From: Candidatus Symbiothrix dinenymphae
GTDB taxonomy: Bacteria > Bacteroidota > Bacteroidia > Bacteroidales > Azobacteroidaceae
NCBI GenBank assembly: GCA_001417715.1
Contig: BBRT01000085.1
Coordinates: forward strand, 1-55,547
Direction: 5' to 3'
Length of the DNA: 55,547 bases
Made by a program: the position numbers and the translations under genes. The notes under the pieces were generated by a model. The model was not told the DNA's origin and ran no database searches. It worked only from the letters and a program-made list of their open reading frames with translations. Below, in pieces: positions 1 to 49,951 of the stretch; positions within the stretch are counted from its first letter, which is position 1, and every line of letters begins with the position of its first letter.

Positions 1-330
1 ATGAAAGCATAACGGCGGTAGTACGCACATTTTAAGACATTTTGGAAAAAGCGTTTAGCTTATTAGTTTTGGCTTGTGAAACTTGACAATTTCTAAGTCG
101 CCAAGGAGAATAGTGTTAGCGTTCGCGCCGTTTGGCGGGACTTTATTCATTATTGGCGACAAAGGTAGTCAAGACCTCACAAGCAAATAAATCAAGAGTT
201 TTGTCTGCGCTTTTTTTATGCTGCGTATTTTGAATGAAAGGCAATAGTTGTCCAAACAACTGGTATCAAACTTGGGGCAAGACACCTACGAAGCCGTTTA
301 GAGTAGGAATTTTAATTAAAAATTTAAATT
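1..330 (+). ncRNA. Structured leader RNA, copy A
   Basis: This is one of three related copies in the window (the others lie near 13412-13770 and 47032-47445). The 5' end and promoter lie outside the window. Nested stems can be read directly: TACGCA 22-27 with TGCGTA 222-227; AAAAAGCG 46-53 with CGCTTTTT 208-215; GCTTGTGA 72-79 with TCACAAGC 177-184; CTTGAC 82-87 with GTCAAG 168-173; GTCGCCAA 97-104 with TTGGCGAC 153-160; apical CGCC 126-129 with GGCG 134-137. A 3' hairpin AGTTGT-CCAA-ACAACT spans 246-261. The element opens with a tiny frame, ATG AAA GCA TAA, at 1-12. No TAnnTTTG promoter separates it from the gene at 334, so the two are probably co-transcribed. I do not recognise the family. 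Confidence 0.75.
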
Positions 331-333
331 TAC

Positions 334-621
334 ATGAGTAAAATTAAAATTGGTGCAGACGAACTCATTTTGTGGCTACGCAAAAACGAAAAGGCAAAGG
401 ATATACCAAATGCAGGTAGTGGCGGATTAGGTCAAAAAATTTTTGATCTTCTTGTTACTACTATCGGTGGTAAAAAAATCATTGATGACAATCCTGCTTA
501 TTGGGCAAATTTGAAGGACGATAAAATTATCAGTCAATATAATTTGCCTCAAAAATCAGCACAATATGAAGTTGAGTCGAGTGAACTTGGTAGAATTTAT
601 AACACATTAATACTTTGGTAA
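334..621 (+). CDS. Hypothetical protein behind structured RNA copy A
   Basis: A 95-residue soluble-looking protein of unknown function. The N-terminus is MSKIKIGADELILWLRK and no signal peptide or membrane segment is visible. The ATG lies directly after the structured RNA, and no -7 promoter element is seen between them, so expression probably depends on that RNA. The stop is one base before the next gene, so the two small genes form a unit that closes at the terminator near 849-886. I cannot assign a function. Confidence 0.55.
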   Translation: MSKIKIGADELILWLRKNEKAKDIPNAGSGGLGQKIFDLLVTTIGGKKIIDDNPAYWANLKDDKIISQYNLPQKSAQYEVESSELGRIYNTLILW

Positions 622-13400: not shown

Positions 13401-13408
13401 TACCTTTG
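13401..13408 (+). promoter_or_regulatory. -7 promoter element of structured RNA copy C
   Basis: TACCTTTG followed by CCGCG, closely matching the promoter of copy B (TACCTTTG at 47019-47026 followed by CCGCC). It lies within the segment shared with the hicA promoter. Confidence 0.7.
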
Positions 13409-13411
13409 CCG

Positions 13412-13770
13412 CGTTGAACAAAAAAAATAAAACAACATAAAATGAAAAGTTAGAATTATAAAATACTGATAACAGGGCTTTTAGCTCTTATTCTCTTACT
13501 TACGAAATCTGGTAAATTTCCTCGAGAATAAGTTAGCGAAAGTTTGCGCTCCGGCGTGGATTGTTTCGTGCTTATTTGAGGGAAACGGTTTACCAGAGCC
13601 AGTAAGTATAAATAAGCATTCACACGAGCAGTTACGCGCTTATAGTTTGCCGATGAGATTAAGAGTTTAGTCCATAAACTTTTAAAACAATGGCAAACAA
13701 AATTATTAGAATTCGTTCAGACAACATATAGTCAGCCACATCAGGGCTTTTGCCTTGGTGTGGCTTTGTT
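13412..13770 (+). ncRNA. Structured RNA, copy C, with its own terminator
   Basis: The third member of the family, more divergent. Stems: TACTTAC 13497-13503 with GTAAGTA 13602-13608; CTGGTAAA 13509-13516 with TTTACCAG 13589-13596; CCTC 13520-13523 with GAGG 13578-13581; AATAAG 13527-13532 with CTTATT 13571-13576; apical CGC 13547-13549 with GCG 13554-13556. Shared with copies A and B are TTTAGCT before the first stem, GTTAGCG and GGCGTGGA in the apical region, and a hairpin ending near 13680. A mini-frame ATG AAA AGT TAG stands at 13442-13453. An intrinsic terminator ends it. Since no promoter is seen between it and the adhesin gene at 13877, readthrough may feed that gene. Confidence 0.7.
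13734..13769 (+). terminator. Intrinsic terminator of structured RNA copy C
   Basis: AGCCACATCAGGGC (13734-13747) pairs with GCCTTGGTGTGGCT (13752-13765) through a TTTT loop, with two G-U/wobble positions, followed by a short T-rich stretch. A strong hairpin about 110 bp upstream of the adhesin start. Confidence 0.75.
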
Positions 13771-13876: not shown

Positions 13877-16735
13877 ATGAAAAAGAAAAATTTATTCAAG
13901 TGCCTTGTAGCGATGGGAGTATTGCTCGGTACAACAGCGGCGGCTTACGCACAAACAGTCCCCGTATTTTCGGAGGACTTTGAAGGTAGCACAACGGGTT
14001 GGACGTTTGTGAACGGTAGCGGTACCAACGCCAACCAATGGCATGTAGGCAGTGCCACAAATGCTGTTAAGAGCGGCAGCCAAGCCGCCTACATTTCCTA
14101 CGATGGCGGCACAACCTATAGTTACGACGTAAATTCCGCCAGCAGAACACATCTCTACCGTGACATTACGTTTCCTACGGCATCGCCCGTAACCCGACCA
14201 TTCATGCTTACCTTTGATTGGAAATGTATGGGCGAAACAAACAGTGGGGGAACTACGTACTACGATTATTTGTCGATATTTTTATCGCCAAATTCATTTA
14301 CCCCCACAGCGGGTGGAATTTTTACAGGTTCATCTGAACTGAATCGTTGGGGAAAATCAAGTGCGTGGCAACAAGAAACTGTTACCTTGCCGGGAATCGA
14401 CTATTCGGGTGTCACAAAACGCTTGGTCTTGAGTTGGGTCAATGATGGCAGTGGTGGTGCCAACCCTCCTATTGCTATTGATAATATCGTTATTGCACCT
14501 GCAGTAGGTGTAACTTTTAATTCGCAGGGTGGTAGTGCAGTTTCTCTGAGATATGTAGCCTCTGGCGCTAAAGTGACCGCCCCCTCCGCACCTACTCGTA
14601 GTGGGTATATCTTTGACGCTTGGTACATAGATGCAGGATACACCACTGCGTGGAATTTTTCTACCAGTTTAGTTACAAGCGACACTACACTCTATGCTAA
14701 ATGGGATGTGAGAGTGGATGCCGAAAAGCCTGCCATAGGCACGCAACCCACAGGCGGCGCGGTAACACAGGGCACTACTAATACGACGCTCACGGTAGGG
14801 GCATCTGTAAGTGACGGTGGTACGCTCACTTACCAATGGTATAAGCCTACTACGGCTGTTAAGACGGGTGGCTCAACTCTATCAAGCGCAGCAAATGCTG
14901 CTTACACTACACCTGCCAACCTTGCCTTAGGCTCACACTATTACTATGTGGTGATAACCAACACCAACAATGGTGTAAACGGCACCAGGACAGCAAAAGA
15001 CACGAGCGATGTAGTTACTGTAACAGTGGTTCAACCCATAGATGCCGAAAAGCCTAATATCACAACACAGCCGCAAAATACAGCCACGTATGATGAGGGT
15101 GATGTGGCTACAGCATTAACCGTTTCGGCAGCAACCCCTACCGATGGCGGCACGCTGTCGTACCAATGGTATAGCAACGGCACAAACAGCACCACAGGCG
15201 GCACGGTGCTCACCGGCTCAACGGCTGCAAGCTACACGCCTTCAACAGCGACGGTAGGCACAGCGTACTACTATGTTGTTGTTACCAATACCAACACCGG
15301 CGCAACCGGCGCACAGACGGCAAAGGACACGAGCGATGTAGCGGTAGTCATCGTCAATGCGCTGGTGGATGCCGAAAAGCCTGCCATCACAACACAGCCG
15401 CAAGATACAGCCACGTATGATGAGGGTGAGGCGGCTGCAGCATTAACCGTTTTGGCAGCACCCCTTGCCGATGGCGGTACGCTGTCGTACCAATGGTATA
15501 GCAACGGCACAAACAGCACCACGGGCGGCACGGTGCTCACCGGCTCAACGGCTGCAAGCTACACGCCTTCAACAGCGACGGTAGGCACAGCGTACTACTA
15601 TGTTGTTGTTACCAATACCAACACCGGCGCAACCGGCGCACAGACAACAAAGGACACGAGCAATGTAGCGGTAGTAACGGTAACGGCAGTGCCGCCCGCA
15701 GGCACAGCGCCCACTATCACCACCACCTCGCTAACCGCAGGCACAGTTGGCACGGCATACAGCCAAACGCTTACCGCAACAGGTAGCACACCTATTACGT
15801 GGTCGGTAACCGTAGGCACGTTGCCCGCAGGCTTGAATTTGAATGCGAGCACAGGCGAAATCAGTGGCACACCCACCACAGCAGGAGCAGCGGTAACCTT
15901 TACGGTACAAGCCGCAAATGGCACTTCACCTGACGATACAAAAGTGTTGAGCATTACCATTAACGCTGCTGCACCCGCAGGCACAGCACCCACTATTACT
16001 ACCACCTCATTGCCCGCAGGCACCGTAGGCACGGCATACAGCCAAACGCTTACCGCAACGGGCAGCACGCCTATTACGTGGTCGGTAACCGTAGGCACGT
16101 TGCCCGCAGGCTTGAATTTGAATGCGAGCACAGGCGAAATCAGTGGCACTCCCACCACAGCAGGAGCAGCGGTAACCTTTACGGTACAAGCCGCAAATGG
16201 CACTTCACCTGACGATACAAAAGCGTTGAGCATTACAATTAACGCTGCAAGTGTTGCAGTTACAGGCGTTACGCTCAACAAAACCTCTACATCGCTTGTG
16301 ATAGGCGGCACAGAGACCCTCACGCCTATCGTTGCGCCAAGCAATGCCACCAACCAGAATGTATCGTGGAGCAGTAGCAACACGGGCGTTGCAACGGTAA
16401 GTGCAGCGGGCTTGGTAGAGGCAAAAGCCGCAGGCACGGCCATCATCACCGTAACCACCACCGATGGCAGCAAGACGGCAACTTGCACGGTAACAGTAAC
16501 AGCAGCAGGCACAACCATCGAAACAATTGCCGGAGATAAATTGCAAGTGCACCCCAACCCCACCAACGGCGTAGTGTATGTGAACAACGCCAACGGCGCA
16601 GAAATCAAAGTGCACAACCTGAACGGCGAATTGCTGCAAACGACCCGCGAAAGCCGCGTAGATTTGTCAGGCTATCCGAATGGTGTTTATCTGCTGCGGA
16701 TAGGTGGGCAGACTTTGAAAGTGGTGAAAAAATAA
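13877..16735 (+). CDS. Secreted multidomain adhesin with T9SS tag
   Basis: A 952-residue protein. Residues 1-25 are a signal peptide ending AYAQ. An N-terminal jelly-roll-like domain runs to about 210. Then comes an InlB/Listeria-Bacteroides repeat (about 211-278), three Ig-like repeats each opening DAEKP (about 280-600), two putative-Ig (He_PIG) repeats built on GTVGTAYSQTLTATG and GTPTTAG (about 605-790), one bacterial Big_2 domain (VTGVTLNKTSTSL onward) and a C-terminal type IX secretion tag with HPNPTNG, PNGVYLLRI and final KVVKK. It should be exported, cleaved and anchored on the surface, probably for adhesion. The DNA of the Ig and He_PIG repeats is almost identical, so unit number may vary. 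Confidence 0.93.
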   Translation: MKKKNLFKCLVAMGVLLGTTAAAYAQTVPVFSEDFEGSTTGWTFVNGSGTNANQWHVGSATNAVKSGSQAAYISYDGGTTYSYDVNSASRTHLYRDITFPTASPVTRPFMLTFDWKCMGETNSGGTTYYDYLSIFLSPNSFTPTAGGIFTGSSELNRWGKSSAWQQETVTLPGIDYSGVTKRLVLSWVNDGSGGANPPIAIDNIVIAPAVGVTFNSQGGSAVSLRYVASGAKVTAPSAPTRSGYIFDAWYIDAGYTTAWNFSTSLVTSDTTLYAKWDVRVDAEKPAIGTQPTGGAVTQGTTNTTLTVGASVSDGGTLTYQWYKPTTAVKTGGSTLSSAANAAYTTPANLALGSHYYYVVITNTNNGVNGTRTAKDTSDVVTVTVVQPIDAEKPNITTQPQNTATYDEGDVATALTVSAATPTDGGTLSYQWYSNGTNSTTGGTVLTGSTAASYTPSTATVGTAYYYVVVTNTNTGATGAQTAKDTSDVAVVIVNALVDAEKPAITTQPQDTATYDEGEAAAALTVLAAPLADGGTLSYQWYSNGTNSTTGGTVLTGSTAASYTPSTATVGTAYYYVVVTNTNTGATGAQTTKDTSNVAVVTVTAVPPAGTAPTITTTSLTAGTVGTAYSQTLTATGSTPITWSVTVGTLPAGLNLNASTGEISGTPTTAGAAVTFTVQAANGTSPDDTKVLSITINAAAPAGTAPTITTTSLPAGTVGTAYSQTLTATGSTPITWSVTVGTLPAGLNLNASTGEISGTPTTAGAAVTFTVQAANGTSPDDTKALSITINAASVAVTGVTLNKTSTSLVIGGTETLTPIVAPSNATNQNVSWSSSNTGVATVSAAGLVEAKAAGTAIITVTTTDGSKTATCTVTVTAAGTTIETIAGDKLQVHPNPTNGVVYVNNANGAEIKVHNLNGELLQTTRESRVDLSGYPNGVYLLRIGGQTLKVVKK
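15041..16258 (+). repeat. Near-identical in-gene repeats of the adhesin
   Basis: Two Ig units start at GATGCCGAAAAGCCT, 15041 and 15368 (period 327 bp; a more diverged one starts at 14717). Two He_PIG units start at GGCACAGC, 15701 and 15980 (period 279 bp). Long identical blocks such as the one from TATAGCAACGGCACAAACAG onward show recent duplication or gene conversion. Confidence 0.9.
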
Positions 16736-47018: not shown

Positions 47019-47026
47019 TACCTTTG
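47019..47026 (+). promoter_or_regulatory. -7 promoter element of structured RNA copy B
   Basis: TACCTTTG followed by CCGCC, closely matching the copy C promoter at 13401-13408. Confidence 0.7.
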
Positions 47027-47031
47027 CCGCC

Positions 47032-47445
47032 GATATTTACGCTAAAGTTATGAATTAAGTAAATATCAGACGATATTGGCTCGAATGAATGAGCTAATAC
47101 GAGTGATAACATATTAAACAATAGGAGATTATGATGACATGACAGCGGTAGTACGCACATTTTAAGATTGGGAAAAGCGTTTAGCTGATATTTTGGTGTT
47201 CGAAACTTAGACAATTTCAACATTACCAATAGTATAAGTGATAACGGTCGCACTGTGTGGTGTGGACTTAATTCATTTATTGGTAATGTGGGTAGTCTAA
47301 GACCTCGAACACGGATAAAATTCAGAGTTTTTGTCCGCGCTTTTTTTATGCTGCGTATCTGAGGAAGGACAACAGTTGTCCAAACAACTGGTATCAACTT
47401 GGGGCAAGCCCTACATTGTCGATTTGAGTAGGGAAAAAGTTAAGT
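47032..47445 (+). ncRNA. Structured leader RNA, copy B
   Basis: A full copy with promoter. Stems: TACGCA 47152-47157 with TGCGTA 47352-47357; AAAAGCG 47173-47179 with CGCTTTT 47338-47344; TGTTCGA 47197-47203 with TCGAACA 47305-47311; CTTAGAC 47206-47212 with GTCTAAG 47295-47301; ACATTACCAAT 47220-47230 with ATTGGTAATGT 47279-47289; apical CACT 47251-47254 with GGTG 47259-47262. All middle stems differ in sequence from copy A yet remain complementary. The hairpin CAGTTGTCC-AAACAACTG region is at 47373-47390. Two extra hairpins lie in the 5' part (GATATTTAC...GTAAATATC). A mini-frame ATG ATG ACA TGA lies at 47131-47142. It leads straight into the lipoprotein gene. Confidence 0.8.
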
Positions 47446-47473
47446 ATTAATGTCAAATTTAAAAATTAAGAAA

Positions 47474-48034
47474 ATGACAAAGTTAAAAAATGTATTTTTG
47501 CTGGCAGCAATGGCTGTTTCAGCGGTAACGTTCACAGCGTGTGACAAAGAGAATGAGGATGAGAACAACAACAACAACACTCTGCCGACTGATACTACAA
47601 GTACTCAGCCAACTGTTTTTGTTATTAAGGCAAGCAATGTCTCCACAGGCACAGTAGAAGTTGATTCCGTAAAAGTGGTATTTTGGTCAAATATGCGCCA
47701 AGAAGAATATGTCATTGCGAGTGCTCCCTATAATGGTGGTTTTACGCTCAATTTACCTGAAACGGTAGATGATGGATATCTTGATGATTGGGAGAATAGC
47801 GTTAAACGCATCGAAGCATATAAGAGCGGGAGCTATGTAGGTCAATTTTGGTATGCGGATAAAATTGACCCGGAACCGACTAAATGGACTATCTGGATGT
47901 ATGCCAACAAGGCAGATGAAATTGAAGGGTTACTTGTAAAACAAGGCTGGTCTAAACTGTATTGGTCGAAAGGCGATTCTGAAATGAGTACTACAGAGCC
48001 AAGCGGGCTGAAGTGGTTTTTTGTTCCAAAATAA
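47474..48034 (+). CDS. Lipoprotein behind structured RNA copy B
   Basis: A 186-residue protein: MTKLKNVFLLAAMAVSAVTF then TAC, giving lipobox VTFTAC with Cys near residue 23, followed by an Asp/Glu/Asn/Thr linker. The mature part (about 50-186) is beta-rich, with TVEVDSVKVVFWSN, VGQFWYADKIDPEP and a terminal WFFVPK. I do not recognise the domain. An alternative ATG lies 24 bp upstream (47450), right at the end of the structured RNA. No promoter separates gene and RNA, and a strong terminator follows. Confidence 0.8.
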   Translation: MTKLKNVFLLAAMAVSAVTFTACDKENEDENNNNNTLPTDTTSTQPTVFVIKASNVSTGTVEVDSVKVVFWSNMRQEEYVIASAPYNGGFTLNLPETVDDGYLDDWENSVKRIEAYKSGSYVGQFWYADKIDPEPTKWTIWMYANKADEIEGLLVKQGWSKLYWSKGDSEMSTTEPSGLKWFFVPK

Positions 48035-49770: not shown

Positions 49771-49778
49771 AATTTGTC

Positions 49779-49868
49779 TGAATCAGGATTTTCAGGATTT
49801 TAAAATTTTCAAGATTAAAATAAAATCCATCCTGGTAATCTTAAAATCCTGAAAATCCTGATTCAGAA
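49779..49868. repeat. Long inverted repeat
   Basis: CTGAATCAGGATTTTCAGGA, followed by TTTTAAAATTTTCAAGATTA, is matched in inverted order by TAATCTTAAAATCCTGAAAA and TCCTGATTCAG. It lies between the ATPase gene and the DUF362 gene and may act as terminator or as a target of a mobile element. Confidence 0.8.
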
Positions 49869-49951
49869 AAAAAAAACACTTCTAACATTTTGTCAATTCA
49901 ACAATAATATGTAATTTTGCGCGTTATTATGACAAATTAAAAACATATTAT

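Follow-up and report, generated by a model that had tools for sequence, protein, structure and literature searches.

The window, a stretch of 55,547 nt from Candidatus Symbiothrix dinenymphae (contig BBRT01000085.1, forward strand), belongs to a genome of 3.52 Mb in 346 contigs (G000). It contains three copies of a structured RNA, referred to as A (1 to 330), C (13412 to 13770) and B (47032 to 47445), each followed by a gene on the same strand (Table 1). The initial annotation had described short blocks shared by the three copies and strands that differ in sequence while staying complementary, and both are present at these coordinates upon inspection of the sequence. The common core measures approximately 165 to 200 nt, and the parts on its 5′ and 3′ sides are lineage-specific. 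Copy A is cut by the contig edge, so that its 5′ part and promoter are absent, and copy C is a divergent subtype. In shuffle tests, the folding z-score equals -5.7 for copy B (47142 to 47365), a value reached by none of 200 shuffles, and -7.0 for copy C (13430 to 13760), reached by none of 100. The first 608 aa of the protein encoded behind copy C match the Listeria-Bacteroides repeat and Ig_3 families of Pfam. Elsewhere in the window, several eukaryotic microRNA models match both strands of positions 49773 to 49871, all below cut-off, suggesting an inverted repeat of about 95 bases.

Table 1. Features of the three RNA copies in the window. E values refer to covariance models R1 (copies A and B are among its 23 source sequences, copy C is not) and R2.
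Feature	Position	Strand	Basis
Copy A mini-ORF, ATG AAA GCA TAA	1-12	+	Sequence; contig start, promoter absent
Copy A P1 5′ strand TACGCAC, partner TGCGTAT at 222-228	22-28	+	RNAalifold, genome copies
Copy A core RNA, P2 to P2′	44-220	+	R1 141.5 bits, E 7.7e-32; R2 E 2.5e-12
Gene 3′ of copy A, 95 aa, without Pfam match at E 0.01	334-618	+	
Copy C promoter motif TAccTTTG	13401-13408	+	Sequence; motif enriched in family
Copy C mini-ORF, ATG AAA AGT TAG	13442-13453	+	Sequence
Copy C core RNA, divergent subtype	~13470-13640	+	R1 E 1.1e-9 at 13475-13636; R2 E 1.5e-6
Terminator-like hairpin in copy C leader, between core and gene	13734-13765	+	14 pairs, 8 G-C
Gene 3′ of copy C, 952 aa, export-type N-terminus by eye	13877-16735	+	
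Copy B promoter motif TAccTTTG	47019-47026	+	Sequence; motif enriched in family
Copy B mini-ORF, ATG ATG ACA TGA, preceded by AGGAG	47131-47142	+	Sequence
Copy B P1 5′ strand TACGCAC, partner at ~47351-47357	47152-47158	+	Predicted folding
Copy B core RNA, P2 to P2′	47170-47350	+	R1 E 1.1e-38; R2 E 1.1e-16
Copy B P2 5′ strand GGGAAAAGCG, partner CGCTTTTTTT at 47338-47347	47170-47179	+	Alignments
Copy B P3 5′ strand GTGTTCG, partner CGAACAC at 47306-47312	47196-47202	+	Compensatory changes
Copy B P4 heptamer CTTAGAC (read as kissing), partner GTCTAAG at 47295-47301	47206-47212	+	Covariation, swap test
Copy B P5 5′ strand ATTACCAA, partner TTGGTAAT at 47280-47287	47222-47229	+	Covariation, swap test
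Copy B P6 apical hairpin	47246-47268	+	Little sequence variation in A4 columns
Copy B P7 hairpin, then U7, intrinsic-terminator-like	47312-47347	+	Sequence
Copy B PK3 5′ strand TTGTCC, partner GGACAA at 47367-47372 by eye	47331-47336	+	Family-level swap tests
Gene 3′ of copy B, 194 aa, lipoprotein-like by eye, without Pfam match at E 0.01	47450-48034	+	

A blastn search with copy B as the query retrieved 27 places in the window's genome (E below 1e-5), 23 of which were aligned (A2) to give covariance model R1. Across these 23 same-genome copies, RNAalifold predicts 40 base pairs, with compensatory changes in 21. Covariance model R2 was derived from 91 sequences of other records (alignment A4), which have no 30-mer in common with the loci of the window's genome. 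The input for A4 consisted of at least 120 stretches matched by a 5′ pattern scan of a named genome collection, together with one viral contig (121 loci, 122 matches; the first match of each was taken). Full flanks were available for 112, of which 99 were non-redundant and 94 had a recognized P2′, leaving the 91 rows used (the viral one included; L124, L154, and L212 omitted). The same helices are supported in A4, which is independent of the window's genome: both-side changes occur in 31 of its 48 pairs, 90.5% of the cells are paired, compared to 36 to 50% in slid versions, and the covariation score equals 0.421, compared to 0.185 after shuffling. The proposal of a selected RNA fold with compensatory changes, originally made from the three copies, is thus supported by covariation that persists in a wide, independent alignment.

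The core is predicted to fold compactly, with P2 as the closing helix, P3 as a variable one, the hairpins H1 and H2, and a P5-P5a-P6 arm. Three helices that were claimed at the outset fall within this scheme, with GCTTGTGA/TCACAAGC and its counterparts corresponding to P3, CTTGAC/GTCAAG and its counterparts to P4, and the apical pairing to P6. When A4 was scanned for covariation without guidance, the best 14 column pairs belonged to P4 (seven), P3 (five), and P5 (two); the closing pair of H2 scored 46.7, below the best non-pairing columns (57.7). The P6 columns of A4 vary little in sequence, and because the A4 loci were picked by a fixed 5′ motif, conservation of the motif block proves nothing. 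P1 and P7-U7 appear by eye to be confined to the window's lineage rather than family-wide, and shorter subtypes lack P7, also by eye.

P4 is a genuine pairing and the hypervariable element of the core, a 7-bp helix with 31 different 5′ strands in 46 rows of the window's genome. Its cells are paired in 315 of 318 cases across these rows, in an alignment fitted to a P4-containing model, which favors pairing. Own-versus-swapped complementarity was assessed on alignment A5 (83 sequences from 82 sources, without L038, L100, L106, L108, L109, and L235; the core of L038 is identical to that of L037, and L100 overlaps L041). In this kinship-naive test, the kissing helix reaches a z-score of 29.5 and P5/P5a one of 22.5, and two control pairings give -0.9 and -2.0. 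P4 is bracketed by H1 (GAAA/TTTC) and H2 (AGGT/ACCT) and is therefore read as a loop-loop kissing helix. Both-side changes are found in three of the four H2 pairs. Since the H1 stem barely varies in A4 and the minimum-energy fold of copy B draws P4 as an ordinary helix, we infer the kissing geometry, in which H1 and H2 would be joined loop to loop, with more reserve than the pairing itself.

Two further pseudoknots, PK1 and PK3, pass the swap tests on average (z of 4.7 and 5.1, respectively, in the kinship-naive A5 test; 6.5 for PK3 in the equally kinship-naive pattern-scan set). Row by row in A5, PK1 beats the median swap in 48 of 83 sequences and PK3 in 44 of 82, against 30 of 83 and 31 of 81 for the controls. 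In PK1, the strand 5′ of P3 would pair with the internal loop between P5 and P5a; as the pattern scan required a fixed 5′ motif, this pairing is beyond what A4 can test. PK3 would pair the sequence just 5′ of P2′ with downstream sequence. A mutually exclusive switch between PK1 and P5a was considered and rejected, as the distant members L232, L236, and L240 accommodate both by eye, with PK1 lying within the internal loop.

Copies A, B, and C indeed belong to one family, as had been claimed, but its total in the genome is about 50 rather than three. R1 finds 50 places at an E value of ≤1e-3 (among 53 listed), two of them partial and two, C281 and C70, with identical cores; R2 finds 49 at the same threshold (among 50 listed). 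One partial copy, at 2456 to 2596 of L031 (G000:C337:45433-45573), lies approximately 0.8 kb from a full copy. The family is widespread beyond this genome. At least 51 of 97 genomes, comprising the window's own and relatives up to the order, match at an E value of ≤0.01 with at most 27 candidates scored per genome. In a sample of the phylum, at least 56 of 395 genomes match at ≤1e-3, the window's own included, with at most seven candidates scored per genome, and 11 of these 56 fall outside the class.

Among the records from the pattern scan, 77 of the 80 listed titles are Bacteroidota, and the matches include Alistipes, Prevotella, Bacteroides, Tannerella, Rikenella, Dysgonomonas, Draconibacterium, Sunxiuqinia, Mariniphaga, Symbiothrix, and Dysgonamonadaceae. 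The RNA is also present in L114 and L175, from records titled Heliobacteriaceae and Sulfurospirillaceae, which are likely misassigned metagenome contigs. Copy numbers are uneven: in nine genomes picked as known carriers of the RNA, R2 (E ≤ 1e-3) gives 106 matches in Symbiothrix Hs463_bin62, 80 in Dysgonamonadaceae Cc175_bin72, 13 in Bacteroides muris, and two to seven in each of the six others. The viral-collection contig IMGVR_UViG_3300029995_000342 (L110) carries an RNA copy with a promoter motif and a downstream ORF. A blastn search of plasmid and phage records with one Bacteroides copy gave no match.

The copies sit between a promoter motif and a gene on the same strand, which is the place of a 5′ leader. 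The start of a same-strand ORF (≥120 aa) lies no more than 350 nt downstream in 64 of 78 cases in A5 and 42 of 67 in A4, compared to 20 of 74 and 22 of 82 at the mirrored position. The Bacteroidota promoter motif TAnnTTTG is found 25 to 130 nt upstream in 48 of 82 (A5) and 75 of 91 (A4) sequences, compared to 17 of 82 and 11 of 91 on the other strand in the same interval; in many copies of the window's genome, the motif lies at about -150, outside this interval. The median distance from P2′ to the ATG is 75 nt.

The genes behind the RNA are biased toward seemingly exported or membrane-bound products. By a simple hydropathy rule, an export- or membrane-like N-terminus is present in 75 of 93 ORFs (≥120 aa) downstream of the RNA at the pattern-scan loci and in the window's genome, compared to 150 of 438 controls, which were other ORFs near the pattern-scan copies only, starting at the first ATG. 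A Pfam search took 117 of 138 downstream ORFs, the other 21 being mostly short or cut, and yielded 87 families, the largest groups being outer-membrane beta-barrel (eight), FISUMP (six), and BspA repeats (five). Given this diversity, a single ligand is not suggested. Exceptions to the bias include a nuclease, DNA methylases, small HTH-like proteins, and an IS66 transposase, whose gene follows the copy at L094. In L058, L059, L097, and L106, all of the window's genome, the RNA precedes small proteins of 77 to 102 aa that are alike by eye (IHIG...DFF). Three of these were tried singly and only the one in L058 has an HTH match; HTH_26 is present in 2 of the 117 downstream proteins.

In the leaders of DNA methylase genes at L124, L154, L169, and L212, the H1/P3 strand occurs twice, once in the RNA and again right at the start codon; in L212, the two occurrences differ by one base. 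Together, H2 and P3′ would be able to mask the start codon there. As a general mechanism, masking by the H2/P3′ strand scores weakly (z of 2.3, against 1.7 for the control) and was dropped; the eight best scores include all four methylase loci, where masking is kept as a local observation.

A very short ORF precedes the core in the window's lineage. It consists of ATG, two codons, and a stop in 24 of 25 inspected leaders, copy B included, mostly 36 to 43 nt 5′ of the core. More broadly in A5, 61 of 83 leaders have an ATG, zero to three codons, and a stop (TAA in 33, TGA in 15, and TAG in 13) within 15 to 62 nt 5′ of the core, compared to a mean of 24.3 (standard deviation, 4.1; highest, 35) in 300 Markov shuffles, 7 to 24 for other start triplets, and 33 for the reverse complement. 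Broken down by origin, the mini-ORF is found in 42 of 46 leaders from the window's genome, 19 of 28 from relatives, and 0 of 9 from distant members. In A4, the count is 36 of 91 sequences, compared to 16.8 after shuffling, but 47 are obtained for the reverse complement. With zero to three codons, the listed mini-ORFs hold no regulatory codon run.

We conclude, with a probability of roughly 0.7, that copies A, B, and C represent an unrecorded family of cis-acting leader RNAs in Bacteroidota. To judge from sequence, the RNA likely regulates the gene that follows, acting as a leader that either is riboswitch-like or senses ribosomes. Along the message, the order is the promoter motif, the mini-ORF (in the window's lineage), the folded domain, and an ORF often encoding an exported or membrane protein. 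The stop of the copy B mini-ORF ends at 47142, and with P1 starting at about 47152, a ribosome that terminates there would abut this helix. From this arrangement, we infer attenuation as the likeliest route of control in the window's lineage. A ribosome on the mini-ORF, abutting the 5′ strand of P1, may influence whether the P1/P2/PK3 fold or the terminator-like P7-U7 hairpin prevails. P7-U7 is present in copy B and, by eye, in near relatives; the 3′ strand of P7, TTGTCC, doubles as the PK3 strand able to pair downstream. In a plausible attenuator, P7-U7 would hence compete with P2/PK3, and the ribosome on the mini-ORF would bias the outcome.

An orphan riboswitch, in which the pseudoknotted core would bind a common metabolite or ion and control the genes behind it, is a possible if less probable reading, and one that partly overlaps with the leader family as a form of it. 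It would account for the pseudoknots and covariation of a complex core located in 5′ leaders and for the low sequence variation of P6; conservation of the fixed 5′ motif by which the A4 loci were chosen is no proof. The many unrelated genes downstream can be counted in its favor, but they lack pathway coherence. In addition, the 80 and 106 matches in two of the genomes are far above the copy numbers known for riboswitch classes.

It is doubtful that the RNA is a constitutive mRNA element for exported proteins, such as a stabilizer, an RNase barrier, or a ribosome-loading structure, in a phylum where Shine-Dalgarno sites are seldom used. The bias to export- and membrane-like genes, the use by unrelated genes, and the median distance of 75 nt from P2′ to the ATG all fit such an element, but pseudoknots and a terminator-like hairpin in the leader point to control that is conditional, unlike that of a passive cap. 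Independent small RNAs acting in trans, ending at the U-tract or at downstream terminators, are improbable. The terminator-like hairpins of copies B and C and the many copies with differing loop sequences would suit them, but not the strong same-strand gene placement, the pairing of sequence 3′ of the U-tract back into the core (PK3), or the lack of P7 in shorter subtypes. Least probable is a dispersed mobile or self-processing RNA (a non-autonomous element, ribozyme, or retron-like RNA) lying upstream of genes by chance: the high and uneven copy number, the one copy before an IS66 transposase gene, and TTAGC beside the closing stem, which is reminiscent of retron RNAs, are outweighed by the regular place between promoter motif and gene, the absence of matches to Rfam self-splicing or ribozyme families, and a G of TTAGC that is not invariant among the genome copies.

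As a cis-acting leader, if regulatory, the RNA would act as a common switch governing surface proteins, and this in organisms with few understood RNA control devices. A far-reaching version, which we regard as speculative and rather unlikely, would be a phylum-wide layer of RNA control over the Bacteroidota cell surface. Some genomes would then hold about 100 leaders sharing one pseudoknotted sensor of ribosome activity on a start-stop mini-ORF, or of one common signal, and the kissing strand would have diversified against cross-pairing between leaders.

The family is real, widespread, and strongly covarying, and it is absent from Rfam 15. An Rfam entry would be expected for an RNA this abundant (49 matches in the window's genome, 106 in Symbiothrix), covarying, and widespread, yet it is missing. 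The window has no match at gathering scores, every Rfam 15 family staying below its cut-off, which bears out the initial impression that no familiar RNA family was matched. Permissive scans of the window and 17 family loci gave only matches far below cut-off and nothing at A, B, or C. A single permissive match, SQ1002_RNA on L119, coincides with a member; at 20.1 bits (cut-off, 128; E value, 4.4), it is taken as chance. Identity with a known Rfam family was consequently rejected, as no cut-off was reached and the two families closest in name or habits, Bacteroidales-1 and Flavo-1, lie elsewhere among the places listed.

Those portions of the open literature that were covered, including PMC2864571, PMC6414381, PMC8040213, and PMC9723704, contain no description of the RNA; an entry in the candidate tables of PMC8040213 or PMC9723704 is possible. 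In a Flavobacterium, 64 structured 5′ regions have been described, a number of them new and without an Rfam match (PMC9723704), and overlap with the present family is possible. The same study states that Flavo-1 matches lie sense or antisense to transcripts alike (PMC9723704). Flavo-1 (RF01705) resembles our family in being dispersed, with many copies per Bacteroidota genome, but is shorter (76 positions). In three carrier genomes, none of the Flavo-1 matches listed overlaps a listed leader-RNA match. At an E value of ≤0.01, this further high-copy element has 41, 48, and 110 matches in genomes G302, G270, and G427, respectively. Bacteroidales-1 (RF01693) is alike in its Bacteroidales host and its length (179 model positions), but its single match in the window's genome, at C248, is at none of the R1 or R2 places.

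With riboswitch leaders, the family has in common the 5′ leader position, a pseudoknotted covarying core, and a downstream gene; it differs in that its genes are united by cellular location more than by pathway and in reaching up to 106 matches per genome. Leader-peptide attenuators, such as the trp leaders and the 3-codon leader of tetQ, resemble the window's lineage in having a structured leader that contains a terminator-like hairpin and is preceded by a very short ORF. However, they differ from the present leaders, in which zero to three codons without a regulatory codon run precede a large pseudoknotted core.
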